Notes under the pieces: generated by a model
What the model was told of the DNA's origin: nothing
What the model saw: the letters and a program-made list of their open reading frames with translations, nothing else
Database searches by the model: none
Shown here: piece after piece, positions 36,034 to 52,200 of the stretch
How the letters are laid out: each line of letters starts with the position of its first letter
Position numbering within the stretch: position 1 is the first letter of the stretch
Position numbers and translations under genes: made by a program
Source: Pseudomonas sp. ACM7
GTDB lineage: Bacteria > Pseudomonadota > Gammaproteobacteria > Pseudomonadales > Pseudomonadaceae
NCBI RefSeq assembly: GCF_004136015.1
Contig: NZ_CP024866.1
Coordinates: forward strand, 4,344,563-4,396,762
Length of the DNA: 52,200 bases
Reading direction: 5' to 3'

Positions 36034-37332
36034 TTACATGACGTGTTTTTCGGCCTCGGGAATGTGGCTTGCGCCCAACATTGCCGGTAACAACCCCGCC
36101 CGCAAATCCCCGCCACTGGGCTGCTGATAAAGGCTCAAGCCAAACTCCGGCAACACCGCCAGCAGGTAATCGAAAATATCCCCCTGAATCCGCTCGTAAT
36201 CCGCCCACACGGTGGTGCGGGTGAAACAGTAGATCTCCAGCGGAATCCCCTGCGCAGTAGTCTGCATCTGGCGGACCATGCAGGTCATGTTCGACTGGAT
36301 TTCCGGGTGACTCTTCAAATACGCCAATGCATACGCGCGGAAGGTCCCGATATTGGTCATCCGCCGACGGTTAGCCGACATCGCTGCAACGTTGCCCTGC
36401 GCTTCGTTCCACGCCTTGAGCTCGGCCTGCTTGCGACTGATGTAGTCGGTCAGCAGATGCACCTGGGACAGCTTCTGCTCTTCGTCATCGCGGATGAATC
36501 GCACGCCACTGGCGTCGATGAACAGGCTGCGCTTGATCCGTCGTCTACCGGACTGCTGCATCCCGCGCCAGTTCTTGAACGACTCGGACATCAGGCGCCA
36601 GGTCGGAATCGAAACGATGGTTTTATCGAAATTCTGCACCTTGACCGTGTGCAGCGTGATGTCGACCACGTCACCGTCGGCGCCGACTTGCGGCATCTCG
36701 ATCCAGTCGCCGACCCGCAGCATGTCGTTGCTGGTCAGCTGCACGCTGGCGACGAACGACAGCAGGGTGTCCTTGTAGACCAACAAAATCACCGCCGACA
36801 TGGCGCCCAGACCCGACAGCAGCAACAGCGGCGAGCGGTCGATCAGCGTGGCGACAATGATGATTGCGCCAAGCACGTACAAAACCATTTTCGTGAGCTG
36901 CACATAGCCTTTGATCGAGCGGGTACGGGCATGTTCGGTGCGCGCATAGATGTCGAGCAGGGCGCTGAGCAGGGCACTGACCGCCAACAGCAGGAACAGA
37001 ATGGTGAATGCCAGCGCGACGTTTCCGAGGAAGATCAGACTGGTCTTGCCCAGCTCCGGCACCAGGTGCAAGCCGAACTGGATCACCAGCGAGGGTGTGA
37101 TCTGCGCCAGACGATGAAAGACCTTGTTATGCCGAAAGTCATTGATCCAGTGCAATGCCGGCTGGCGACCGAGCATTTTGGTCACATGCAGAATGAGGTA
37201 GCGCGCCACTCGTCCGAGGACCAGCGCAACCACCAGCAATAGCACCAATGCCAGGCTGGAATGCAGGAGCGGGTGCTGATCGAGGGCACCCCAAAGGTCT
37301 TGGACGTTGAGCCAGAGCTGTTTGATATCCAT
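36034..37332 (-). CDS. mechanosensitive channel, MscS superfamily (YbdG-like)
   Basis: A 432-residue protein with about five hydrophobic segments between residues 20 and 190. The MscS pore helix and beta domain follow (SGLGAMSAVILLVYKDTLLS, then VGDWIEMPQVGADGDVVDIT and IVSIPTWRLMSESFKNW). A longer cytoplasmic C-terminal part resembles YbdG/MscM rather than small MscS. It would release solutes under membrane tension. The ATG at 37332 begins MDIKQLWLN; the Shine-Dalgarno is weak, and an open frame to 37431 exists. Divergent from the DEAD-box helicase gene. Confidence 0.9.
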   Translation of the reverse strand: MDIKQLWLNVQDLWGALDQHPLLHSSLALVLLLVVALVLGRVARYLILHVTKMLGRQPALHWINDFRHNKVFHRLAQITPSLVIQFGLHLVPELGKTSLIFLGNVALAFTILFLLLAVSALLSALLDIYARTEHARTRSIKGYVQLTKMVLYVLGAIIIVATLIDRSPLLLLSGLGAMSAVILLVYKDTLLSFVASVQLTSNDMLRVGDWIEMPQVGADGDVVDITLHTVKVQNFDKTIVSIPTWRLMSESFKNWRGMQQSGRRRIKRSLFIDASGVRFIRDDEEQKLSQVHLLTDYISRKQAELKAWNEAQGNVAAMSANRRRMTNIGTFRAYALAYLKSHPEIQSNMTCMVRQMQTTAQGIPLEIYCFTRTTVWADYERIQGDIFDYLLAVLPEFGLSLYQQPSGGDLRAGLLPAMLGASHIPEAEKHVM

Positions 37333-37525
37333 GGGCAAAAACGGTTCTTCTGTAGGACGCGACGGGGCGATTAGAGCACTTAAGACGCTTTGGATGACGT
37401 TTGAGGACAAAAGACGCAACAAAAAAACCACTGTTTAGCGCCGTTTGTATAAAGAAACTCGGCCTTAGCGCTCGAAACCGTTACCCTATGCAGCTGTTTT
37501 TTTGTATTTCTTCGAGGTAGCACCC

Positions 37526-38872
37526 GTGTTTTCCCAATTCGCCCTGCACGAACGCCTGCTCAAAGCCGTGGCCGAGCTTAAATTTGTCGAGCCAACGCCT
37601 GTGCAAGCAGCGGCTATTCCGCTGGCGCTCCAAGGGCGTGACCTGCGGGTGACAGCGCAAACCGGCAGCGGCAAAACCGCCGCCTTCGTTTTGCCGATCC
37701 TCAACCGTCTGATCGGCCCGGCTAAAGTCCGCGTCAGCATCAAGACCCTGATCCTGCTGCCGACCCGCGAGCTGGCCCAGCAGACCATCAAGGAAGTTGA
37801 GCGTTTCGCTCAGTTCACCTTCATTAAGTCCGGCCTGATCACCGGCGGTGAAGACTTCAAGGTCCAGGCCGCCATGCTGCGCAAGGTGCCGGACATCCTG
37901 ATCGGTACGCCGGGCCGGATGATCGAGCAACTGAACGCCGGCAACCTCGACCTCAAGGAAGTCGAAGTACTGGTCCTCGACGAAGCCGACCGCATGCTCG
38001 ACATGGGCTTTGCCGAAGACGTCCAGCGTCTGGTGGAAGAGTGCACCAACCGCCAGCAGACCATGCTGTTCTCTGCCACCACCGGTGGTTCGGGCCTGCG
38101 CGAGATGGTCGCCAAGGTGCTGAACAACCCTGAGCACCTGCAGCTCAACAACGTCAGCGATCTGAATGCGACCACCCGTCAGCAGATCATCACCGCTGAC
38201 CACAACCAGCACAAAGAACAGATCGTGAACTGGCTGCTGGCCAACGAGACCTATCAGAAGGCCATCGTGTTCACCAACACCCGGGCCATGGCCGACCGTA
38301 TCTACGGCCGCCTGGTGGCGCAGGAATACAAAGCGTTCGTCCTGCACGGTGACAAAGACCAGAAAGACCGCAAGCTGGCCATCGACCGTCTGAAGCAGGG
38401 CGGCGTGAAAATCCTGGTTGCCACCGACGTCGCCGCTCGCGGCCTCGACGTGGAAGGCCTGGACCTGGTGATCAACTTCGACATGCCGCGCAGCGGCGAC
38501 GAATACGTGCACCGCATCGGTCGTACCGGTCGCGCCGGCAACGATGGCCTGGCCATCTCGCTGATCTGCCACGGCGACTGGAACCTGATGTCGAGCGTCG
38601 AGCGCTACCTCAAGCAGAGCTTCGAGCGCCGCACCATCAAGGAAGTCAAAGGCACCTACGGCGGACCGAAAAAGGTCAAGGCCTCGGGCAAAGCCGTTGG
38701 CGTGAAGAAGAAAAAGGTCGACGCCAAAGGCGACAAGAAGAAAACCGGCGCCAAGGCCCCGACCAAACGCAAAATCGCCAACCGCCCGAAGACCGACGCC
38801 CTGTCGCTGGTCAGCAAGGACGGCATGGCGCCGCTCAAGCGCCGCAAGCCGGAAGCGCCGGCTGCTGAATAA
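37526..38872 (+). CDS. DEAD-box RNA helicase (RhlE/SrmB-like)
   Basis: A 448-residue helicase with the full motif set: AQTGSGKT, PTRELA, GTPGR, DEAD (VLDEADRMLDMGF), SAT, VFTNTRA, ATDVAARGLD and HRIGRTGR. A Lys-rich basic tail of about 75 residues follows (KKKKVDAKGDKKKTGAK region), likely for RNA binding. I choose the GTG at 37526, which has GAGG 8 bp upstream. Such enzymes act in ribosome assembly and mRNA decay, often in the cold. It is closed by a symmetric terminator. Confidence 0.9.
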   Translation: MFSQFALHERLLKAVAELKFVEPTPVQAAAIPLALQGRDLRVTAQTGSGKTAAFVLPILNRLIGPAKVRVSIKTLILLPTRELAQQTIKEVERFAQFTFIKSGLITGGEDFKVQAAMLRKVPDILIGTPGRMIEQLNAGNLDLKEVEVLVLDEADRMLDMGFAEDVQRLVEECTNRQQTMLFSATTGGSGLREMVAKVLNNPEHLQLNNVSDLNATTRQQIITADHNQHKEQIVNWLLANETYQKAIVFTNTRAMADRIYGRLVAQEYKAFVLHGDKDQKDRKLAIDRLKQGGVKILVATDVAARGLDVEGLDLVINFDMPRSGDEYVHRIGRTGRAGNDGLAISLICHGDWNLMSSVERYLKQSFERRTIKEVKGTYGGPKKVKASGKAVGVKKKKVDAKGDKKKTGAKAPTKRKIANRPKTDALSLVSKDGMAPLKRRKPEAPAAE

Positions 38873-39601: not shown

Positions 39602-42600
39602 ATGGACGTTCGCCACTATGCCCTCCTCGCTGGCCAGCCCTCTGCTGCGGTCAAAAACCGTGAGCGCTTCTGGGGTATGCCCAAGCGCGGGTTGGCGTTC
39701 CTGTTGGCCAACGTCATGTTCTGGCAACCGATGTGGGCCCAGGCCGAGGGGATCGTTGTGGCGACGCCGGGCACTAGTCTCGGTCAGGCGGGCAACGGTG
39801 TGGCGATCGTCAATATCGCCACGCCAAATGGCACCGGGCTGTCGCATAACCAGTTCCACGATTACAACGTCGGCACCCAGGGCGTGATCCTCAACAACGT
39901 CGCCAACCAGACCGGCGCGACGCAGTTGGGCGGGATCATCGTCGGCAACCCCAACCTGACCAACCGGATCGCGGCGCAAACCATCCTCAACGAAGTGATC
40001 GGCGGAAGCCCCAGCCAGTTGCGCGGTTACACCGAAGTGGCGGGGCAGTCGGCACGCGTCATCGTCGCCAACCCGTATGGCATCAGTTGCAACGGTTGCG
40101 GTTTCATTAACACCCCGCGTGTGACATTGACCACCGGCAAACCCGTGCTCGACGGCGGCGGTCGTCTGGATCGCTTCCAGGTCGATCAGGGCAGCATCGC
40201 CATCGAAGGTGCCGGACTCAACGCCACGAACGTCGACCGCTTCGAAATCATCACCCGCAGCGCGAAAATCAACGCCGAGATTCAGGCGAACAACCTGACC
40301 CTCATCGCCGGGCGCAACGACGTCAACGCCGACAGCCTCAACGCCACCGCCCGCGCCGACGACGGCAGCGCCAAGCCGGGGCTGGCTATCGACTCCTCGG
40401 CCTTGGGCGGCATGTACGCCGGGGCGATCAAACTGGTGGGCACCGAAGCCGGGGTCGGGGTGAAACTCGACGGCAAACTGATTGCCAGCGGCGGCGACAT
40501 TCAGCTCGATGCCAACGGGCACTTGAGCCTGGTCGACACCTCGGCCACCGGCGCCGTTATCGTCAAAGCCGCGAGCCTCGACGCCCGCGGTCCGGTTTAT
40601 GCCGGATCCGCGCTGAACGTTCAAACCAAGGGCAACCTGACCAACCAGCAAACCCTCGCCGCCCGCGACAGCATCATGTTGAGCGCCGGTGGTCAGTTGA
40701 CCAACAGCGGCGTCATCGAGGCCGGGGTTAACGCCGACAGCAGCCGCAACGCCAACGGTGATGTGAGCCTGACGGCGCAAAATCTCAACAACAATGGAAA
40801 AAGCGTGGTTGCCAGTCGCAACCTGTCGGTCAATACCGCGCAGACCCTGAGCAACCAGGGCGGCACGTTGAGCGCCGCGCAAACCGCAAACATTACCGCC
40901 GGCACACTAGATAACCGGAACAATGGTCGGGTATTGAGCACGGGGGCGCTGAACATCACGGCCAATCAGGCGTTTAACGCAAGCGGGGTCATCAACAGTG
41001 TCGGCAATCTGACGGGCACTTTCGGTCAGATGAACAACAGCAACGGTGAAATCTCCAGCACCCGCATCACCCGGCTCAACGCCATTACGCTGAACAACCA
41101 AAGTGGCCAGGTCCTGGGCGACCTTGGCTTGAACATTGACCTCAGCGGCGCGCTGGATAACCGGGACGGTTTGCTCGGTTCAGGCAAGCAGGTTGAACTC
41201 AAAGCCGCCAGCATCGACAACCGCGACGCGGGCGTGATCGTCAGCGACGGTAGCCTCACCGCGCGCATCAGCGGTTTGCTGGATAACCAGAACGAGGGCG
41301 AGATCAGCGCCAAGGGCGCAATCGATGTACGCAGCGGCAGCCTCGACAACCGCGGTGGCAAAGTCAGCGGTAAAGACACGCTGACCGTCAGCAGCGACTC
41401 TGCTGATAACCGTGGCGGGGTGATCCAGGCCGACAAACAGCTGAAACTGCAAATCAGCCAACTGGATAACCGCGATAAAGGTTTGATCAGTGGCAAGGCC
41501 GGTATCGCTTATGACGGTACTCGCCTGGACAACAGTGCCGGTTTGCTCAGTGCCATCGGCGCGGTCACCCTCAACGCCGATGAAGTGCAAAACGCGGCCG
41601 GGCGGATCTCCAGCCAAAGTGACCTCACTGCCAACATTGGGCTGCTGCAACAACAAGGCGGGGCATTGGTTGCCCAAGGCAATCTGAGCCTGACCGGCAC
41701 GACCCTCGATAACCGCAACGGCGGCCTGGTCGGCACCACTAAAGCGCTGACGCTGAAAGTCGGCGACATCGACAACCGTGCAGGCGAGCTCTCCAGCGGC
41801 TTGTTGCTGAACATCAAAGGTCAGCGCCTGGACAACAGTGATGGCGGGAAAGTGCTGGCCGCGACCCATCTGGAAATGGTCGTTGCCAAACTGATTAACC
41901 AGAATAAAGGCCAGATCGTCGCCAAGGGCGCAACGACGCTGACCGGCACCACGCTGGATAATACTGGCGGCACCTTCGACAGCCTCAATGGTTTGGTGAT
42001 CACCCTCGACGATGCCTTGCTCAATGGCCAAGGGCTGATCAGCAGCGAAGGGATTTTGACCATCAACGCGGCCAGCCTCGACAACAGCGCCGGCAGCCTG
42101 GGCAGTGCCGGTGCGTTGTCCGTGACCAGTCGTGGCGCCTTGGTCAATCAGAGTGGCTCGATCAGCACCGACAACACTTTGACCCTTGATAGCGCCAGCC
42201 TGGATAACAGCCAGAAAGGCCTGATATCCGGCAAAGACACCACCCGCGTCGTCACTGGCAACGTTGATAACAGTCAGGGCGGGCGTCTCATCAGTGGCGC
42301 CACGCTGGAGCTCACTGCCAAGCAGGTTAATAACGCCACCGGACGCATTGCCAGCCAGCAAGCATTAACCGCCTCGGTCACCGGGCTTGACCAACAGGGC
42401 GGTGAACTGTTCAGCCAAACCAGCCTGAGCCTGGACCTGAACAACGGTCAACTGAACAACCAGGGCGGTCTGATCAACGCGCCGTTGCTGATGTTGAAAA
42501 ACCTCAAGGACGTCAACAACCAGCACGGTGAAATTTCCAGCGCTCAAGCCTTCACACTGGCCGCTCAAAACCTGGACAACAGCAACGGCAAATTGCTGAG

Positions 42601-45600
42601 CAATCAGGGTCTGACCCTGCGCATCGCACAAGCCTTGAACAACCTCAAAGGCGTGATCTCCGCCTCTTCCCTCGATAGCCACAGCGCCAGCCTCAACAAC
42701 AGCGAAGGCTTGATCAGCAGTCACGACCGGCTGGAACTCACCACTGACAACACACTGGATAACCAGCAAGGTGCGGTCATCGCTGACGGTGAACTGCTGC
42801 TTACTGCCGACACCCTGGACAACCTTGGCGGCGATATTGCCGGCAAGGCCGACGCCACCGTTCAGGTCAAAACCCTGAATAACCAGAAAGGCAAATTGAT
42901 CACCACCGGTGTGCTCAAGCTGACCGCCGATACCCTCGATAACCGCCAAAAAGGTCTGCTGGGGTCCACCAAAGCCATGACCCTGACGGTCGATGACCTC
43001 GATAACCGCGGCGGCGAAGTCAGCACCAACGCCGACTTGTCGGTCACCGGCACAAAACTCGACAACAGCGATGGCGGCCAGATTTTCACCGGTCAGGCAC
43101 TGACCCTCACCGTGGATCAGTTGCTCAACCGCAACAAAGGCCTGCTCAGCGCCACCACCGCGCTGAACCTGCAAGGGCGTTTGCTGGATAACAGCGGCGG
43201 CCATTTGCTCAGCGTGCAAAACATGCACTTGAACCTGACCGGCGCATTCGACAACAGCCTGGGCGAGGTCGGCAGCGAAGGTGCGTTGACCGTCAAAACC
43301 ACGCAACTGACCAACACCGAGGGCAGTCTTTCCAGCGCGGCCGGCCTGAAGCTCACCAGCGACGGCAGCGTCAGCAACCAGGGCGGTGCAGTGGTCACCG
43401 ATGGTGCACTCACACTCAACAGTGCCAGCCTCGACAACCGCCAGCAAGGCAACATCAGCGGCAAAGGCGCGGTGACGGTCACCACCGGCGCGTTCGATAA
43501 CAGTCAGGGCGGGCGACTCAACAGCGCCAGTACCCTGAACCTCGTCGCGGGCCAAGTCACCAACCGGGCCGACGGCCGTATCGGCAGCGAGGGCGCCTTG
43601 ACCGCTTCGGTCACCGGGCTGGATCAGCAGGGTGGCAAGCTGTTCAGCAACAGCAGCCTCAGCCTGGACCTGAACAACGGCCAACTGAATAACCAGAACG
43701 GGCTGATTAATGCTCCCGGTACCTTGCTGCTCAAACAACTTAAGGGTGTTAACAACACGGGCGGCGAAATTTCCAGTACCGAAGCCTTCACGCTAACTGC
43801 GCAAAGCCTGGACAACAGCAACGGCAAATTGCTGAGCAATCAGGGCTTGACCCTGCGCATCGCCAACGCGCTGGATAACATCAAAGGCCTTATCGGCGCG
43901 GCGTCCCTTGACGCGCACGCCGCCAGCGTGAACAACAGCGGCGGTAGCCTGACCAGCCGCGGCGATCTCGAACTGACCGTCGACGGTGTGTTGCGCAACG
44001 ATGCCAAGGGCCTGATCAACGCGGCTCAGCTACTCAAAATCGGTAGCGCCGAATTCAATAACCAGAGCGGCACCGTGCTCGGCGTCAGCGCCGTCATCCT
44101 CGATGCCATGGCGCTGAACAACCGTGATGGCGGCTTGATTAACAGCCAGGGCAACCTGACCCTGATCGCCACCAGTCTGGACTCTAGCAACGACGGCGAA
44201 GTCTCGGCCAAGGGCAACATCGACCTGACTCTGACGTCCCTGACCCAGAACGGTGGTCGCCTGCTCGGCGACAAAGCCGTCACTGTGGAGCTGGCCAACG
44301 GCGACTTCGACAATCGCAACGGCCTGCTCACGGCCAAGGGACCGCTGACCCTCAAGCGCCTTCGCGATCTCAACAACCAGAACGGCGAAATCTCCAGCAA
44401 CCTCGGTTTTGATGTGATTGCCCGCGCCTTGGATAACAGCGCCGGCAAGCTGATCAGCAATCAGCTACTGACCGTCAACGGCACCGCCCTGGTCAACCAG
44501 AAGGGACTGATCTCCGGCTGGCAGGGCCTGACCGTCAACGGCGATAGCCTCGATAACCGCGACAGCGGCACACTCTCGAGTCGCAACGGTGATGTTGCCG
44601 TGGACCTCAAGGGCGCCTTGCTCAACAGCAATGCCGGAGCATTGGTCGGTCAGGGCAGCCTGAACGTCAAAGCGAGCACACTGGATAACAGCAACAAGGG
44701 CATTCTCAGCAGCGCGGCGGGGCAGACACTCACCCTGACGTCGCTCAACAACAACCAGGGCGGCCTGATCGACAGCGGCGCCGCACTGGACATCACCGCC
44801 GGCGCATTGACCAACGCGGGCGGCACGATCAACGCACAAGAGGCGATCAATGCCACGGCCACCGGCCTGGACAACACGGCCGGGAGCATCGCCGGCAATG
44901 GCGCGGTGACGCTGGATCTGCTTGGTGCATTGACCAATACCCGCGGCAAGCTGGCCGGTGCCGGACCGGTGCTGATCAAGCGCGTGACCGATCTCGCTAA
45001 CCAGAACGGCCAACTCGCCAGCCAAAGCACACTGACCCTCCTGACCGGTTCGCTGGACAACAGCAACAACGGCACCATCGCCGCCAAAGACGCGTTGCAG
45101 ATCACCGCCAGCGGCGCGGTACGCAATGACGCTAATGGTTTGATCTACAGCCAGAACGCCGGCCTGAACCTGCAAGCCGCCAGCCTGGCCAACGGCAAAG
45201 GCGCGATCCAGAGCCAGAACGGTCTGACCCTCGACGTCAGCGGCAACCTCGATAACCAGAGCGGCAAAGTCATTGCCGAGAACGGCGTGGTGACGGTCAA
45301 AGCCGCCAGCATCGACAACCGCGGCGGCGTGCTGTCGAGTATCAAAGGCGCCCTTGAAGCACGAACCGTTGGCGTATTGCGTAACGGCTACGACCTCAAC
45401 AACAACCGTCAGGGCGGGATCATTCAAGGCCAGGGCCTGACGCTGTCGGCACTGGCCGGCCTGGACAACAACGGCGGACGGATCTCGGCGCAAGCCACTG
45501 ACGCGAGCATCACCACCGCCGCGTTCGACAACCGTAATGGCGTGCTCTATGCCAAGGGCCTGGTCGGCGTGACCGGCATCAGTCTGGACAACGGTAACGG

Positions 45601-48600
45601 TCAGATTGCCGGCAACCGCATCGACCTCAGCCTCAGCGGCGCCCTGAGCAACCGTGCCGGTATCGTTGAAAGCGACACCACGCTGACCGTCAAAGCGGCT
45701 AGCGTCGATAACCAGACGGGCCGGCTTCGCTCTCTGGGCACTACCGGCAAGACCAGCTTCCAGATCGGCGGTTTGCTGGATAACCGCAATGGCGTACTCG
45801 AGACCGCCAACACCGACCTGACCTTGGCCGTTGGCAGCTTTCTGAATGCCGGTGGCCAACTCAATCACGTCGGTCGTGGCCGATTTGATATCTCCACCGC
45901 CAACGTCATCGGCGCCGGAGGCGGCATCACCACCGGCGGCACGCTGGATCTGAATGCCGACACCTGGGCCAACTCCAGCGTCATCCAGGCCGGGCGCTTG
46001 AACGTTAACGTCAATAATTTCAGTCAGACCGCGAGTGGCAAGTTGCTGGCCTCTGACTACTTGCAAGCTCGTGGTGGTAACTGGACCAATGATGGCCTGA
46101 TCGCCAGCGATGGCGTGTTGGATATGCAGTTGGGCGGCAGTTACAGCGGCAACGGGCGGATGTCGAGCATTGGCGGTCTTTCCCTGACCGCGGCACAACT
46201 GAGCCTGAACGCAGCCTCAAGCATCGCGGGTGGTGGTGATTCCACGGTCAAAGTTGGCGGACAACTGACCAACGCCGGGCGGCTGACTTCCAATGCCGAC
46301 CTGACTGTCGAAGCCGGTAGCCTGAACAACACCGGCACACTGGGCAGTTCGCAAGCGCTTCTGATCAAAACGCCTAACCTGATGAATGATCGCGGCCTGA
46401 TCTTCAGCGGTCAGAACACTGCACTGGAAGTCGGCAGCCTCACCAACAATTACGGCGACTTCTACAGCCTCGCTGACCTGACCATTAAGGGCTACGCGGG
46501 TGCGGCGCGAGCCAACGTCTTGGAGAATATTTCCGGGGTGATGGAGAGTGTCGGCAACATGTCGATCAATGCCACGACCCTGAACAACCGTGGCGACAAG
46601 TTTGAGGTGACGCGCAAGCTGGTGTCCGGCTTCATTGCGGTTCACTGCAATGATTGCCGCGGGGATACCTATTCCGTCGACTACGGCCTGCGGGAAATTT
46701 ACGAAGGCTCGGTCTCCGATCAGTCGCCCGGGGCAAAGTTGACCTCGGGCGGCAACTTCACGTTCAACGGCGGTGACTTCCTCAATAGCCGCAGCGAAGT
46801 GGTCGCGGCTAGCAATATCACGATCAACGCCAACAACTTCACCAATCTCGGTGCGTCAGCTGGCACCATCGAACGTACGCGGATCTTCACCGCACCGGGG
46901 ATAACCGACGGTACTCATACCCGTTTCGTCCTGGGCGATCTCTGGGAATACAACAAACGCAATGACAACGGCCCATTGACCTTTCACTACATTGACAATA
47001 CCGGGCAGTTTCGCACCACCAATTATGCAACTGAGGAGTACACCCTCAAGGGGAGTTTTGAGTATCGCAGCATCCTTGTGGACAGTGAAACCGGCAAGAA
47101 GCTGATAGGCTACGGCGGCGCGCGTCACCCTGACCGTTATGAGCAATCGGAGTACGACCCGAACAATCTGCTTTCGATACCCACTCGGCTTGCTAACTAT
47201 GCGGTGGTCAGCGACGTTGAGGTGTCCCGCGACGGCGGCGCTGTTCAATCGGCCATCGTTCAGGCAGGTGGCAAAGTCAGCATCAACGCCGCGCAGAACC
47301 TCACCAATAGTGTGATCCACCAGGATTACGGCTTCAGCGCCGGCGTTGATCGTCGACAAAATACCCAAGGTGGCGGGACCGGCAAACCGCTGCTGGTGCA
47401 CCTTAACAGCCAACTGCCACCAGACCTTTCACAGCAGCAAGTCAACCCGCTGACATTGCCGGGCTTTAGCCTTCCCTCCGGGGAGAACGGCCTGTTTCGC
47501 CTTAGTGAACAGGGCGCAAGCAGTCTTCCAGCGGGGGTAGGGACACAGCATCCGTCGAACTGGATTGTGGGCAGTGAAAACGTCAGCACCCTGGGACACG
47601 TGGTCGCCGCATCCAGCGGTGGCCCGCGCAGCTTGCTGGTAGACAGTCCTGTGGCCGTCTCCAGCAGTGATCGCGCCGTCGACCCGGTCAGGCGTCCACC
47701 GACGGTGGCGGCGGGTGTCGCCAGCACACTCGACGTTTCCGTGACGTCGACCGCTCCTCGCACGGGCGGACTCGGCGACGATATGAAGAGCTCGTTTGAC
47801 AACCGCCCCGTGACGCGCGTCACCGGCTTGCCGGACGTGAAAGCGCCGGCCAACGGTCACAAATACCTGATCGAAACCAATCCGGTACTCACCAACCTCA
47901 AGCAGTTCATGAGTTCGGATTACCTGCTGAGCAACCTCGGCTACGACCCGGACACCAGCGCCAAACGCCTGGGCGACGGTCTCTACGAACAGCGCCTGAT
48001 CCAGCAAGCGGTCGTCGCTCGCACCGGCCAACGCTACATCGACGGCCAGACCACCGACGAAGGCCTGTTCAAGTACCTGATGAACAACGCCATCGCCAGC
48101 AAGGACGCCCTCAATCTGTCGATGGGTGTCAGCCTTACCTCGCAACAAGTCGCGGCGCTGACCCACGACATCGTCTGGCTCGAAGAGCACGAAGTGAATG
48201 GCGAAAAAGTCCTGGTGCCGGTGCTCTATCTGGCACAGGCCGAAGGCCGTCTCGGCCCGACCGGTGCGCTGATCGCCGGTAAAGACGTGACGCTGATCGC
48301 CGGTCAGAACCTCGATAACGTCGGTACGTTGCGCGCCACCAATAACCTGTCGGCGACGGCGGGCAAGGACCTGGTCAACAGCGGCTTGATTCAGGCGGGT
48401 AATCGCCTGGACGTGCTGGCGGGTAATGACGTCATCAACAAGTCGGGCGGTATTCTTGCTGGTCGTGACGTGAGCGTGAACGCGATCATGGGTGACGTGC
48501 TCAACGAGCGCACCATTACTTCGCAAGACAACAAAACGCGCTTCGGTACGCAACATCACGATTTCGCTGACAGCGCCGCGCGCATTGAAGCCGCCAATGA

Positions 48601-51337
48601 CCTCAATGTCTCGGCGGGGCGGGACATCAACAATATTGGTGGTGTGCTGCAAAGCGGCCGTGACATAGACCTGAATGCCGGACGGGATCTCAACGTCTCC
48701 TCGGCGCAGGTCACCAACAGTGTGTTCCGCGATAGCAGGCACAACAGCAGCGACATCACCCAATTGGGTGCCACCGTCAGCGCCGGCCGTGACCTGTCGG
48801 CCCAGGCTGGGCGTGATATCAGCGTGATCGCCAGCCAGATTGATGCCAAACGCGACATCGCGATGTCGGCAACCGATAACCTGATCATCAGTTCTGCGGC
48901 GGACGAAGAGCACTCCCTGTCCAAGAGCAAAAAGCTCACCCGGCAGGAAGATCATGTCAGCCAGGTCATGTCGGGTATTACGGCGGGCGGCGACGTGGCA
49001 TTGGGTGCCGGTCAGAATCTCGCCGTGGTCTCCAGCCGCATTACTGCCGGCGACGAAGCGTATCTGGTGGCGGGCGACAGCCTCGACATTCTCGCGGCGC
49101 AGGACACCGATTACTCGCTATACGACAAAAAGAAAAAAGGCTCCTTCGGCTCGAAGAAAACCAAGCGCGATGAAGTCACCGATGTGAAAAACATCGGCAG
49201 CGAAATCACCTCCGGCGGCAACATGGTGCTCGCCAGTGGCGGCAATCAACATTACCAGGCCGCCAAGCTCGACAGCGGCAATGACTTGACCATCAGCAGT
49301 GGCGGGGCCATCACGTTCGAGGGTGTGAAGGACCTGCATCAGGAGAGCCACGAGAAAAGTGATACCAGCCTGTCCTGGAACTCAATGTCGGGCAAAGGCA
49401 ATACCGACGAGACCCTGCGGCAAAGTCAATTGGTGGCTCAGGGGCAATTGGTGATCAAGGCGGTTGATGGCCTGAACATCGATATCAAACAGATTAATCA
49501 GAAATCGGTCAGCCAGACCATTGATGCAATGGTGCAGGCAGATCCACAACTTGCGTGGCTTAAAGAGGCCGAGAAGCGTGGGGATGTGGATTGGCGTCTG
49601 ATCAAGGAGACACACGAGTCCTTTAAATACAGCAACTCCAGCCTGGGCCAGGGCGCGATGTTGGTGATCATCATTATTGTCACTGTCCTGACGGCCGGAG
49701 CCGCGAGTGCGGCTGCGGGGACTGCCGCCGGCGCGACGGCGGGTTCAGGGACTGCCATGGCAGCAGCGGGTACGGCATCCGCCTCGGCAGTGGCCGGCGG
49801 CGCTGCAGTCGGTTCAACCGTGGGGGCGGGGTTGGGGAACATGATGGCTTCCGCCGTGTTGACCTCCATGGCCAGCACTGCGGCCGTCAGCACGATCAAC
49901 AACAAAGGCAATGTCGGAGCAGCTTTCAAAGACGTCTTCTCTTCTGACAACCTCAAAGGTTATGTGCTCGCAGGTGTCACCGCAGGCATCGCCGCACAAT
50001 TCGGCTTTAACCCTACGGAGTTGACGTTCGATTCGGCCGATGCCAAGGCCGTGGCAATCAAGATTGCAGCCGACACAGTGGCCAAAACGGCAATTATGGG
50101 CGGTAGCCTGACGAACAATCTGGTCGACGCGACGGTAGGGGCCGGGATCAGTATTGGTGGGGCACTTGCGGCCAACAAAATTGGCGATGTAACCCTGTTT
50201 GAAAACGGCAAGTTGACAAAACTCGCGATGCACGCGGCTCTCGGCGGCCTGATGGCTGAGGCCATGGGGGGCGACTTTCGTACGGGGGCTCTGGCTGCAG
50301 GGGCAAATGAAGCGGTTGTGGACTTCCTGGCCGACAAGTTGTTACCGGTCGGGGTCGACAGAAATAGCCTCGAGTATCAACAAGGGGTTAGTAAGCTGCT
50401 GGCGGCCTCCCAACTGGTCGGCGTGTTGACGGCGGCCGTTACGGGAGGCGATGCCTCCGCCGCCGCTGCAGTGACGGCAAACGCAACGCAATACAACAAC
50501 CTCGACCATCCGTCGGCTGAGCGATTGCTTAAAGAGCTTCAGGGCTGCCGGGCGACTCAAGGGTGTACTGCCGAAAACATCCGCGAAATCGTTGGACAGT
50601 ACGAAAAACTGTCGAGCCAGCGCTCGATGGCTATTAACGCCTGCGGAAACAGGGCGTGTGTGGAGGATATTCAGAAAAGTGCGGTCTCGCTGGAGACACC
50701 CGTTGCCAAGGACTTGATGGATTTCCTGCGGCGTAATATTTCATATGACATGGCAGGGCTGCTAACGGGAAATCCAGGATTGATTGCAGTCCCATCGCAG
50801 GGGGTTGATCCGTGGGGAGCAATGTTTACTTCGGATAAGCAGATGGCTTTCGCGAAGTACGTCAAGGAAGGCTGGCTGACACCTGATGAAACGGCAGGCA
50901 TCGATCAATGGGTCAAGGACACTAGTTGGCTTGATGTGCAGGCTGGGAAGCAATTGTCTCTGCAGGATCGAGCGAACATGATGACCGGGCTGACATCTGC
51001 GGCTGCGATGGCGCTCATTGGTCGGAATCCGGCGGGTGCAGGTGGAGTCGGTGCAAAAGGGGTAAGTTCGGTTGCAGATGATTTCTTCGCGGGAACTAAA
51101 TATACGGATAAGGTTGTAGGCCAAATTAAAATAGGCGATCTACATGCGTTCCCGGAAAGTGTCAAAGCATTCCAAGGCTCTGGGCAAGTGACGAAGATCA
51201 CTGGAGGGGATGGGGTCGTGAGGGATATGCTGAAAATTCCCGGCGAGTACCGTGGCAAGCAAGGTGTATTCGAATTCATAAAGGAATCGGATGGGTCAAT
51301 CAATCATCGTCTATTTAAACCGAGTTCGGGGCAGTGA
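39602..51337 (+). CDS. CdiA/filamentous haemagglutinin-type TpsA exoprotein with C-terminal toxin
   Basis: A 3911-residue two-partner-secretion effector. Residues 1-48 are an extended signal peptide (cleavage after WAQA). Residues 50-300 form the TPS domain with NPNLTNR (116-122), NPYGI (157-161) and CNGC (163-166). Residues 330-2330 hold about 20-residue LDN/G-rich beta-helix repeats, with a 411-residue duplication. Residues 2334-2760 are non-repetitive and may bind a receptor. Residues 2893-3300 are a second repeat field. From 3353 a hydrophobic VIIIIVTVLTAGAA stretch and a DUF637-like region follow. NATQYNNL (about 3625) stands where VENN is usual. The last ~90 residues (from GTKYTDK, about 3830) are the likely toxin. 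The immunity gene starts 3 bp after the stop. No cdiB is nearby. Confidence 0.92.
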   Translation: MDVRHYALLAGQPSAAVKNRERFWGMPKRGLAFLLANVMFWQPMWAQAEGIVVATPGTSLGQAGNGVAIVNIATPNGTGLSHNQFHDYNVGTQGVILNNVANQTGATQLGGIIVGNPNLTNRIAAQTILNEVIGGSPSQLRGYTEVAGQSARVIVANPYGISCNGCGFINTPRVTLTTGKPVLDGGGRLDRFQVDQGSIAIEGAGLNATNVDRFEIITRSAKINAEIQANNLTLIAGRNDVNADSLNATARADDGSAKPGLAIDSSALGGMYAGAIKLVGTEAGVGVKLDGKLIASGGDIQLDANGHLSLVDTSATGAVIVKAASLDARGPVYAGSALNVQTKGNLTNQQTLAARDSIMLSAGGQLTNSGVIEAGVNADSSRNANGDVSLTAQNLNNNGKSVVASRNLSVNTAQTLSNQGGTLSAAQTANITAGTLDNRNNGRVLSTGALNITANQAFNASGVINSVGNLTGTFGQMNNSNGEISSTRITRLNAITLNNQSGQVLGDLGLNIDLSGALDNRDGLLGSGKQVELKAASIDNRDAGVIVSDGSLTARISGLLDNQNEGEISAKGAIDVRSGSLDNRGGKVSGKDTLTVSSDSADNRGGVIQADKQLKLQISQLDNRDKGLISGKAGIAYDGTRLDNSAGLLSAIGAVTLNADEVQNAAGRISSQSDLTANIGLLQQQGGALVAQGNLSLTGTTLDNRNGGLVGTTKALTLKVGDIDNRAGELSSGLLLNIKGQRLDNSDGGKVLAATHLEMVVAKLINQNKGQIVAKGATTLTGTTLDNTGGTFDSLNGLVITLDDALLNGQGLISSEGILTINAASLDNSAGSLGSAGALSVTSRGALVNQSGSISTDNTLTLDSASLDNSQKGLISGKDTTRVVTGNVDNSQGGRLISGATLELTAKQVNNATGRIASQQALTASVTGLDQQGGELFSQTSLSLDLNNGQLNNQGGLINAPLLMLKNLKDVNNQHGEISSAQAFTLAAQNLDNSNGKLLSNQGLTLRIAQALNNLKGVISASSLDSHSASLNNSEGLISSHDRLELTTDNTLDNQQGAVIADGELLLTADTLDNLGGDIAGKADATVQVKTLNNQKGKLITTGVLKLTADTLDNRQKGLLGSTKAMTLTVDDLDNRGGEVSTNADLSVTGTKLDNSDGGQIFTGQALTLTVDQLLNRNKGLLSATTALNLQGRLLDNSGGHLLSVQNMHLNLTGAFDNSLGEVGSEGALTVKTTQLTNTEGSLSSAAGLKLTSDGSVSNQGGAVVTDGALTLNSASLDNRQQGNISGKGAVTVTTGAFDNSQGGRLNSASTLNLVAGQVTNRADGRIGSEGALTASVTGLDQQGGKLFSNSSLSLDLNNGQLNNQNGLINAPGTLLLKQLKGVNNTGGEISSTEAFTLTAQSLDNSNGKLLSNQGLTLRIANALDNIKGLIGAASLDAHAASVNNSGGSLTSRGDLELTVDGVLRNDAKGLINAAQLLKIGSAEFNNQSGTVLGVSAVILDAMALNNRDGGLINSQGNLTLIATSLDSSNDGEVSAKGNIDLTLTSLTQNGGRLLGDKAVTVELANGDFDNRNGLLTAKGPLTLKRLRDLNNQNGEISSNLGFDVIARALDNSAGKLISNQLLTVNGTALVNQKGLISGWQGLTVNGDSLDNRDSGTLSSRNGDVAVDLKGALLNSNAGALVGQGSLNVKASTLDNSNKGILSSAAGQTLTLTSLNNNQGGLIDSGAALDITAGALTNAGGTINAQEAINATATGLDNTAGSIAGNGAVTLDLLGALTNTRGKLAGAGPVLIKRVTDLANQNGQLASQSTLTLLTGSLDNSNNGTIAAKDALQITASGAVRNDANGLIYSQNAGLNLQAASLANGKGAIQSQNGLTLDVSGNLDNQSGKVIAENGVVTVKAASIDNRGGVLSSIKGALEARTVGVLRNGYDLNNNRQGGIIQGQGLTLSALAGLDNNGGRISAQATDASITTAAFDNRNGVLYAKGLVGVTGISLDNGNGQIAGNRIDLSLSGALSNRAGIVESDTTLTVKAASVDNQTGRLRSLGTTGKTSFQIGGLLDNRNGVLETANTDLTLAVGSFLNAGGQLNHVGRGRFDISTANVIGAGGGITTGGTLDLNADTWANSSVIQAGRLNVNVNNFSQTASGKLLASDYLQARGGNWTNDGLIASDGVLDMQLGGSYSGNGRMSSIGGLSLTAAQLSLNAASSIAGGGDSTVKVGGQLTNAGRLTSNADLTVEAGSLNNTGTLGSSQALLIKTPNLMNDRGLIFSGQNTALEVGSLTNNYGDFYSLADLTIKGYAGAARANVLENISGVMESVGNMSINATTLNNRGDKFEVTRKLVSGFIAVHCNDCRGDTYSVDYGLREIYEGSVSDQSPGAKLTSGGNFTFNGGDFLNSRSEVVAASNITINANNFTNLGASAGTIERTRIFTAPGITDGTHTRFVLGDLWEYNKRNDNGPLTFHYIDNTGQFRTTNYATEEYTLKGSFEYRSILVDSETGKKLIGYGGARHPDRYEQSEYDPNNLLSIPTRLANYAVVSDVEVSRDGGAVQSAIVQAGGKVSINAAQNLTNSVIHQDYGFSAGVDRRQNTQGGGTGKPLLVHLNSQLPPDLSQQQVNPLTLPGFSLPSGENGLFRLSEQGASSLPAGVGTQHPSNWIVGSENVSTLGHVVAASSGGPRSLLVDSPVAVSSSDRAVDPVRRPPTVAAGVASTLDVSVTSTAPRTGGLGDDMKSSFDNRPVTRVTGLPDVKAPANGHKYLIETNPVLTNLKQFMSSDYLLSNLGYDPDTSAKRLGDGLYEQRLIQQAVVARTGQRYIDGQTTDEGLFKYLMNNAIASKDALNLSMGVSLTSQQVAALTHDIVWLEEHEVNGEKVLVPVLYLAQAEGRLGPTGALIAGKDVTLIAGQNLDNVGTLRATNNLSATAGKDLVNSGLIQAGNRLDVLAGNDVINKSGGILAGRDVSVNAIMGDVLNERTITSQDNKTRFGTQHHDFADSAARIEAANDLNVSAGRDINNIGGVLQSGRDIDLNAGRDLNVSSAQVTNSVFRDSRHNSSDITQLGATVSAGRDLSAQAGRDISVIASQIDAKRDIAMSATDNLIISSAADEEHSLSKSKKLTRQEDHVSQVMSGITAGGDVALGAGQNLAVVSSRITAGDEAYLVAGDSLDILAAQDTDYSLYDKKKKGSFGSKKTKRDEVTDVKNIGSEITSGGNMVLASGGNQHYQAAKLDSGNDLTISSGGAITFEGVKDLHQESHEKSDTSLSWNSMSGKGNTDETLRQSQLVAQGQLVIKAVDGLNIDIKQINQKSVSQTIDAMVQADPQLAWLKEAEKRGDVDWRLIKETHESFKYSNSSLGQGAMLVIIIIVTVLTAGAASAAAGTAAGATAGSGTAMAAAGTASASAVAGGAAVGSTVGAGLGNMMASAVLTSMASTAAVSTINNKGNVGAAFKDVFSSDNLKGYVLAGVTAGIAAQFGFNPTELTFDSADAKAVAIKIAADTVAKTAIMGGSLTNNLVDATVGAGISIGGALAANKIGDVTLFENGKLTKLAMHAALGGLMAEAMGGDFRTGALAAGANEAVVDFLADKLLPVGVDRNSLEYQQGVSKLLAASQLVGVLTAAVTGGDASAAAAVTANATQYNNLDHPSAERLLKELQGCRATQGCTAENIREIVGQYEKLSSQRSMAINACGNRACVEDIQKSAVSLETPVAKDLMDFLRRNISYDMAGLLTGNPGLIAVPSQGVDPWGAMFTSDKQMAFAKYVKEGWLTPDETAGIDQWVKDTSWLDVQAGKQLSLQDRANMMTGLTSAAAMALIGRNPAGAGGVGAKGVSSVADDFFAGTKYTDKVVGQIKIGDLHAFPESVKAFQGSGQVTKITGGDGVVRDMLKIPGEYRGKQGVFEFIKESDGSINHRLFKPSSGQ
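42422..44890 (+). repeat. 1233-bp diverged tandem duplication inside the CdiA-like gene
   Basis: The coding block with SLSLDLNNGQLNNQ at 42422 recurs at 43655, with matching sequence both before (VTGLDQQGG and DNSQGGRL) and after it (DNSNGKLLSNQGLTLRIA). A third, weaker copy follows near 44300 (ELANGDFDNRNG, DNSAGKLISNQ). The period between the first two is 1233 bp (411 codons), so the frame is kept. The outer limits given are approximate. Confidence 0.65.
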
Positions 51338-51340
51338 AGT

Positions 51341-51700
51341 ATGAATAATATTTGGTCGAGTGAGGTTGATGTCATTCTAAGTGTCGGTGTGCCCCTAGAG
51401 TGCATTGGAATAAAAAATTGGGCTTTAAGTCGTAATGAAGCGATATCTGCTATTTGTGAACTTGAAACTCATGGAATACCTATACTAGGTGGCGATGTAT
51501 ATCATTTGGTTAATGGGGCGGCTGAGCAAACATACGACAATTGGTACTGTGACCGAGATGCAAATGAACTGGCTTCAGAGTTTTTAAGACGCAGTGTGAG
51601 TAAAGCAAAAAGCTATATCGAGAATTACGAAGTGGATGGTGCTTTGTTTGCGATAGTGCCTATGATTGGAAACTCTGAAAAAGACATCCAGATTTGGTGA
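51341..51700 (+). CDS. probable CDI immunity protein (Imm40-like)
   Basis: A 119-residue acidic protein without a signal peptide. The segments GIKNWALSRNEAISAI and IPILGGDVYHLVNG resemble the Imm40 family of polymorphic-toxin immunity proteins, recalled from memory and not aligned. It starts 3 bp after the toxin gene stop, the standard CdiI position, and should protect the producer cell by binding the toxin domain in the cytoplasm. It is strongly AT-rich compared with everything upstream, as exchanged toxin-immunity cassettes usually are. The transposase gene starts 37 bp after its stop, so the last codons may come from the IS end. Confidence 0.75.
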   Translation: MNNIWSSEVDVILSVGVPLECIGIKNWALSRNEAISAICELETHGIPILGGDVYHLVNGAAEQTYDNWYCDRDANELASEFLRRSVSKAKSYIENYEVDGALFAIVPMIGNSEKDIQIW

Positions 51701-51737: not shown

Positions 51738-52200
51738 ATGAAACAGATGTCCTTCGCCGATGCCGAATATGCCGGAAAACGTAAGCAGACCCGCCGCGAG
51801 CGCTTCCTGATCGAGATGGATCAGGTGGTGCCTTGGAAGGGCCTGATTGCCTTGATCGAGCCACACTATCCGAAGGGCGAAGGTGGCCGTCCGGCGTATC
51901 CGTTGATGGCTATGTTGCGGGTTCATCTAATGCAGAATTGGTTCGGCTACAGCGATCCGGCAATGGAAGAATCACTGTATGAAACGACCATTCTGCGTCA
52001 GTTCGCGGGGTTGAGTCTGGATCGGATTCCCGATGAAACCACGATCCTCAACTTCCGGCGCTTGTTGGAGAAACATGAGTTGGCGGGCGGAATCTTGCAG
52101 GTTATCAACGGCTATCTGGGTGACCGTGGCTTGATGCTGCGCCAAGGCACGGTGGTCGATGCGACGATCATTCATGCGCCGAGTTCGACCAAGAACAAGG
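51738..52200 (+). mobile_element. IS5-family insertion sequence, transposase gene (partial, runs off window)
   Basis: The ATG at 51738 opens a frame that stays open to the window end (154 codons). It begins MKQMSFADAEYAGKRKQT, with FLIEMDQVVPWKGLIALIEP, GRPAYPLMAMLRVHLMQNW, RQFAGLSLDRIPDETTILNFR and VVDATIIHAPSSTKNK, the last holding the first Asp of the DDE site. These are hallmarks of the IS5 subgroup. GC content is back to the chromosomal level. The left inverted repeat must lie in or just before 51690-51737; I cannot place it without the right end. Confidence 0.92.

Follow-up and report, generated by a model that had tools for sequence, protein, structure and literature searches.

Contact-dependent growth inhibition (CDI) is outlined in published accounts as a scheme in which CdiB displays the exoprotein CdiA, the C-terminal (CT) region of CdiA is freed in the target cell, an entry domain passes through the inner membrane, and the toxin does its work in the cytoplasm (PMC9086364, PMC9424206). 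Here we examine the end of a giant cdiA gene and the small gene behind it in a 52,200-nucleotide stretch of Pseudomonas sp. ACM7 (contig NZ_CP024866.1, positions 4,344,563 to 4,396,762; referred to as the window). We consider it rather probable that this locus is a CDI toxin-immunity cassette in which an Ntox19-type RNase of the barnase/EndoU/colicin E5-like (BECR) fold, most likely tRNA-cutting, is plugged by Imm40. The modularity of the CdiA tail, the family motif of the toxin, the linkage and co-variation of toxin and Imm40, and the link by fold and profile between Imm40 and ImmE5-type immunity proteins were all computed here.

The family closest to this toxin, Ntox19, was predicted in 2012, with Imm40 and Imm38 (the latter being DUF2247) as its published partners (Zhang et al., PMC3482391). 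In a 2023 review it stands among the families awaiting experiment (PMC9990079), and assays of members under other names may exist. A Salmonella survey argues for RNase activity of an Rhs effector from Imm40 (PMC11669294), and Ntox19 is listed among Salmonella effectors in another account (PMC12994826). The sister family Ntox50 contains a solved tRNase whose cleft is described as occluded by its immunity protein (PMC12700104). For BECR-type CdiA-CTs in general, one review gives all characterised members but one as tRNases and the remaining one as an rRNase, with immunity proteins that generally bind the active site (PMC9086364).

The C-Terminal Region Is a Swappable Module

Over 48000-50497, from the start of the query to a point inside the motif NATQYNNL, the strain's own second cdiA gene is 86.6% identical in DNA to that of the window, and the identity goes no further; the paralogous CdiA carries an unrelated tail after the motif. 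A first reading of the DNA by a model (the sequence-only reading) had put NATQYNNL in the place of the VENN motif, and the stop of paralogue identity inside it bears this out. PT-VENN (PF04829) gave no Pfam match in the 3911-aa protein at E<=1. Two other genomes of the genus also share the region before the motif: G061 is 92% identical up to the motif and 72% over the next 178 residues and ends in a Pfam Ntox21 toxin, and G106 has 89% identity as far as the motif and a Pfam Colicin_E5 toxin at its end. These two swaps give the boundary in two steps, with a CT junction at NATQYNNL and, at about residue 3815, a second junction between the toxin and a stretch (residues 3637-3814) that looks like an exchangeable entry domain.

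The tail is thus a swappable module, and its distribution agrees. The region preceding NATQYNNL was found in 55 of 119 genus genomes, the entry domain in 14 of 298, and the toxin tail in only 10 of 298 (five strong matches of 81-195 bits and five weak ones of 25-33 bits); a tail conserved as part of all such haemagglutinins was looked for and is not what these counts describe. Base composition changes along the same line, the GC fraction falling from 0.602 for CdiA (39602-50480) through 0.548 for the entry domain and 0.478 for the toxin to 0.403 for the small gene. The toxin lies below every 276-nt stretch of the preceding CdiA (minimum 0.507), and the small gene lies below every 360-nt stretch of the window before it (minimum 0.419), both at 20-nt sampling. 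The last ~90 codons had been described as set off by a Gly/Ala linker and lower GC, which holds; the linker lies near 51030-51060 and GTKYTDK begins at 51092.

The paralogous CdiA (L147 2654-14983, at 2.66 Mb of the same genome) is 84% identical over about 3700 aa and has its own cdiB upstream. Its tail recalls GIY-YIG nucleases by eye, the last 349 aa matching only DUF6862 (0.01), and the 152-aa gene directly after it has no Pfam match.

The Toxin Domain

The published family motif order D, H, DxxxR, E, HxxF is present in full in the window toxin. In an 81-row alignment, counting only rows with a letter at the position, D27 is kept in 57/73 (E in 6), H29 in 71/73, D51 in 76/78, R55 in 62/79 (Y in 13), E72 in 74/78, H83 in 77/78 and F86 in 77/78. 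The four tail blocks singled out by the sequence-only reading coincide with the conserved blocks of a 58-member alignment. Two helices and a 4-stranded meander are predicted as secondary structure. Matched against its published description, the toxin fits Ntox19; it is probably a BECR-fold RNase, and His 29 and His 83 of the domain are predicted to be catalytic by analogy with Zhang 2012. The small C-terminal toxin with a probable BECR fold that had been proposed earlier, then unassigned to a family, is supported and now has a fitting name.

No Pfam or NCBIfam model for this toxin domain matched the window tail or the 58 aligned members, and searches of the PDB by sequence with the tail and with the immunity protein returned nothing credible. 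Two named families were considered and set aside. Ntox10 matched 1/58 members (1.1e-10), and the relative so labelled (P0060) has ~70 extra residues before the domain; Ntox50 (PF15542) has HxVP where the present toxin has HRLF, and gave no Pfam match in the tail or the 58 members. One relative (P0102) is named 'Bacterial toxin 50' by its source.

The toxin is encoded at 75 loci spanning Pseudomonadota, Bacteroidota, Bacillota, Planctomycetota and others. Among 51 stretches scanned upstream of it, DUF637 was found in 12, RHS_repeat in 8, PT-VENN in 5 and MafB in 2, and at some other loci HINT modules likewise stand before the domain. Viral contigs searched with the toxin alignment gave 64 pattern stretches, none of them confirmed, in a search that did not recover the published mimivirus member. 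Five loci (L007-L011) form a distant Ntox19-like branch that ends in THQRF, with DUF2247 (Imm38) next in 5/5.

Imm40 and Its Pairing with the Toxin

The small gene, previously called Imm40-like, matches Pfam Imm40 (PF15569) at 47.2 bits against a cut-off of 25. In an alignment of 32 sequences G50, D52, W68 and F103 are invariant and G51 nearly so; in one of 77 sequences G50 and D52 are still invariant, G51 and W68 almost invariant, and F103 is not listed. The structural model has a predicted local distance difference test score (pLDDT) of 89.6, with nine C-terminal residues of low confidence.

A profile built from the window gene and its relatives found an Imm40 match <=120 nt from the end of the toxin frame in 72/75 toxin loci, 67 of them at >=25 bits; loci at which the small gene is absent or unrelated, sought as evidence against the pairing, are accordingly few. 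When 83 downstream ORFs (open reading frames; 74 of them at these loci, 9 taken from the genus search) were scanned with Pfam, 56 matched Imm40 and 6 DUF2247, the latter following the toxin in the five distant Pseudomonas siblings and at a Bacteroidales locus (L064). Because Imm40 and Imm38 are the two published partners of Ntox19, the family assignment is firmer than it would be by motif alone. The 298 genus genomes contain five strong tails and as many Imm40 genes, and four genomes have both (P 8e-8). The fifth Imm40 (G220) is an orphan, lying behind a CdiA whose tail is a different one, and the fifth strong tail (G088) is frame-broken, its immunity gene broken too. The distance matrices of toxin and immunity protein correlate at 0.71 over 67 pairs, exceeding all 5000 permutations, a value to which shared ancestry contributes. 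Linkage and co-variation together support the small gene as the matching immunity gene of the toxin tail. The orphan Imm40 (L140 3394-3747) lies amid small ORFs and an interrupted relative of a colicin-E5-type immunity gene.

Imm40 and the Colicin E5 Antidote

ImmE5 acts on colicin E5 by blocking its RNA site. The closest solved fold to the Imm40 model is ImmE5 (2fhz_A), an entry whose title describes the colicin E5 RNase inhibited by its immunity protein. Imm40 is linked by fold and profile to ImmE5-type immunity proteins and seems to be distantly related to the colicin E5 antidote. At the level of Pfam models, ImmE5 (PF11480) did not match the window protein, for which Imm40 was the sole family at E<=10, and it was absent among the matches listed (25 families) for 77 Imm40 members. 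The same model gave 4 weak matches, 0 over the cut-off, in 321 genomes of the class and one match, over the cut-off, in 348 genomes of the genus. On the toxin side, Colicin_E5 (PF12106) matched neither the tail nor the 58 members at E<=1, and the toxin and colicin E5 profiles showed no link (hhalign P 0.29).

These relationships suggest a broader proposal, which we offer tentatively and hold to be possible rather than probable. Imm40, ImmE5 and the CdiI proteins of Pseudomonas colicin-E5-type CDI may form one superfamily, a plug for the RNA cleft that has remained paired with BECR RNases even as the toxins drifted too far apart for their sequences to be matched. On that view Ntox19, which ranges from Pseudomonas to Bacteroidota, Bacillota and Planctomycetes, would correspond to colicin E5 but use histidines, and its target would be tRNA, perhaps at the anticodon loop. 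In the portions available of the literature on Imm40, Ntox19, DUF2247, BECR, CdiA tRNases and colicin E5/ImmE5, the Imm40-ImmE5 link was not found. The link makes a poorly known pair directly testable, as to where Imm40 binds and which kind of RNA is cut, and it suggests that immunity proteins may reveal relationships between toxin systems that have been lost from the toxin sequences.

A further immunity family (L139 2973-3305 and L162-L170) occurs in 9/298 Pseudomonas genomes, a colicin-E5-profile match adjoining it in 8/9; the two members scanned have no Pfam match.

Locus Layout and Neighboring Genes

The features of the locus are collected in Table 1. The small gene had been described as an AT-rich gene of 119 codons lying 3 bp beyond the 3911-aa frame, and its coordinates are confirmed, the start lying 3 bases past the CdiA stop.

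Table 1. Features of the cdiA-imm40 locus, in window coordinates.
Feature	Position	Strand	Evidence
CdiA-like two-partner-secretion (TPS) exoprotein, 3911 aa	39602..51337	+	ORF; Pfam TPS 1.9e-54, Fil_haemagg 9.2e-52; TIGR01731 in 42 stretches
NATQYNNL, VENN-like junction opening the C-terminal region	50480..50503	+	paralogue DNA identity ends here; G061, G106 and paralogue alike up to motif
Probable cytoplasm-entry (pre-toxin) domain, residues 3637-3814	50510..51043	+	in 14/298 genus genomes; G061 swap; role inferred
Ntox19-type toxin domain, residues 3820-3911	51059..51334	+	58-member alignment; family motif; predicted secondary structure
His 29 codon of toxin domain, predicted catalytic	51143..51145	+	conservation; role predicted after Zhang 2012
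DxxxR motif, domain residues 51-55	51209..51223	+	D 76/78, R 62/79
Conserved Glu 72 codon of toxin domain	51272..51274	+	E 74/78
HxxF motif, domain residues 83-86, second predicted catalytic His	51305..51316	+	H 77/78, F 77/78
Imm40 immunity protein, 119 aa	51341..51700	+	PF15569 47.2 bits; model pLDDT 89.6; closest solved fold ImmE5 2fhz_A
IS5-family transposase, 5' part, runs past window end	51738..52200	+	NF033581 158 bits; full 325-aa ORF in L146 2301-3278

No cdiB lies directly upstream of the window cdiA. A 568-aa cdiB is found ~3.3 kb downstream, past the IS5 element, and after it comes a CdiA of 4282 aa with an EndoU toxin (Bacterial EndoU nuclease) at its end; transposase, cdiB and this CdiA occupy L146 2301-19756, past the right end of the window. 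The genome yielded only two ShlB-type genes (PF03865, E<=0.001), one next to the paralogue and the other downstream of the window, and the neighboring CdiA proteins of these two CdiBs are 84% and 49% identical to the window CdiA over most of their length. In all, the strain has genes for at least three CdiA proteins, each with a different tail.

A direct repeat of 271 nt with identical copies (L146 3153-3423 and 3524-3794, starts 371 nt apart) overlaps the IS5 transposase gene at its 3' end. Upstream of cdiA lie a mechanosensitive channel gene (36034-37431, - strand) and a frame ending at 38872 (38500-38872, + strand) that by eye resembles a DEAD-box helicase C-terminus.

Proposed Mechanism and Alternatives

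In the mechanism that we favor, a CdiB partner would export CdiA, the C-terminal region would be cut loose near NATQYNNL inside the target cell, and the entry domain would bring the final ~92 residues to the cytoplasm. There the toxin would act as a metal-independent BECR RNase, most likely on tRNA, with H29 and H83 acting and D51, R55 and E72 helping, and Imm40, with its ImmE5-like fold, would shield the producer and its kin by covering the RNA-binding cleft. RNase activity, tRNA target, mode of blocking and delivery are what we infer; the ImmE5 fold of Imm40, taken with the precedents among BECR CdiA-CTs, makes it most likely that the toxin is a tRNase and that Imm40 plugs its RNA-binding cleft.

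The substrate is where an Ntox19 RNase neutralised by Imm40 might still differ from this account. It could cut rRNA, mRNA or RNA in general, the resemblance to ImmE5 then showing only the reuse of one immunity scaffold against BECR folds. BECR toxin substrates do differ widely, the single rRNase among characterised BECR CdiA-CTs being a case in point, the toxin profile has no link to colicin E5, and Ntox19, unlike colicin E5, is predicted to use histidines. However, the other characterised BECR CdiA-CTs are all tRNases according to the same review (PMC9086364), and Ntox50, a sister family that also has two histidines, has a tRNase member (PMC12700104); we regard a non-tRNA target as unlikely, albeit a serious contender.

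Delivery raises another doubt, namely that the toxin is real but this cdiA copy is not deployed. The missing upstream cdiB, the IS5 element between cdiA and the downstream cdiB, and the association of both ShlB-type genes with other cdiA genes all point that way. However, the 3911-aa frame is open and keeps its TPS domain, and either CdiB might serve the window CdiA, given how similar their neighboring CdiAs are to it, which leaves non-deployment improbable. The reading of the tail as a structural haemagglutinin end with the small gene as a passenger can draw on a tail that is in frame and makes up only some 2% of the protein, but it is already refuted by the tail swaps, and the rarity of the tail relative to the preceding region and the Rhs, MafB and HINT modules that precede the same domain elsewhere also speak against it; we give it almost no credence.

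Comparison with Known Systems

The tRNase-Imm40 cassette proposed here resembles several described systems, each in a different respect. Colicin E5/ImmE5 (PF12106/PF11480; 2fhz, 2dfx) offers the counterpart on the immunity side, but the window toxin has no sequence link to colicin E5, which is described as not using histidines (PMC9990079), whereas the window toxin is predicted to do so. With the Ntox50 pair YxiD-YxxD of B. subtilis (PMC12700104) it shares a predicted two-histidine BECR arrangement, the C-terminal His standing at the S/T position (Zhang 2012). However, the Ntox50 motif is HxVP rather than HRLF, its immunity protein is Sm-like rather than Imm40, and that toxin is reported to be metal-dependent.

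As in CDI systems with a CdiA-CT/CdiI pair, the locus combines TPS and filamentous haemagglutinin (FHA) repeats, an exchangeable CT after a VENN-like motif and a downstream immunity gene, differing in that cdiB is not directly upstream. The conserved GGD, W and F of the Imm40 family (PF15569) are likewise those of the window protein. Ntox19 as published (Zhang et al. 2012, PMC3482391) agrees in several respects: the order D, H, DxxxR, E, HxxF is the same, the Imm40 partner is found here and the Imm38 partner in the sibling branch, and delivery by CdiA, Rhs and MafB is common to the published family and the present set.

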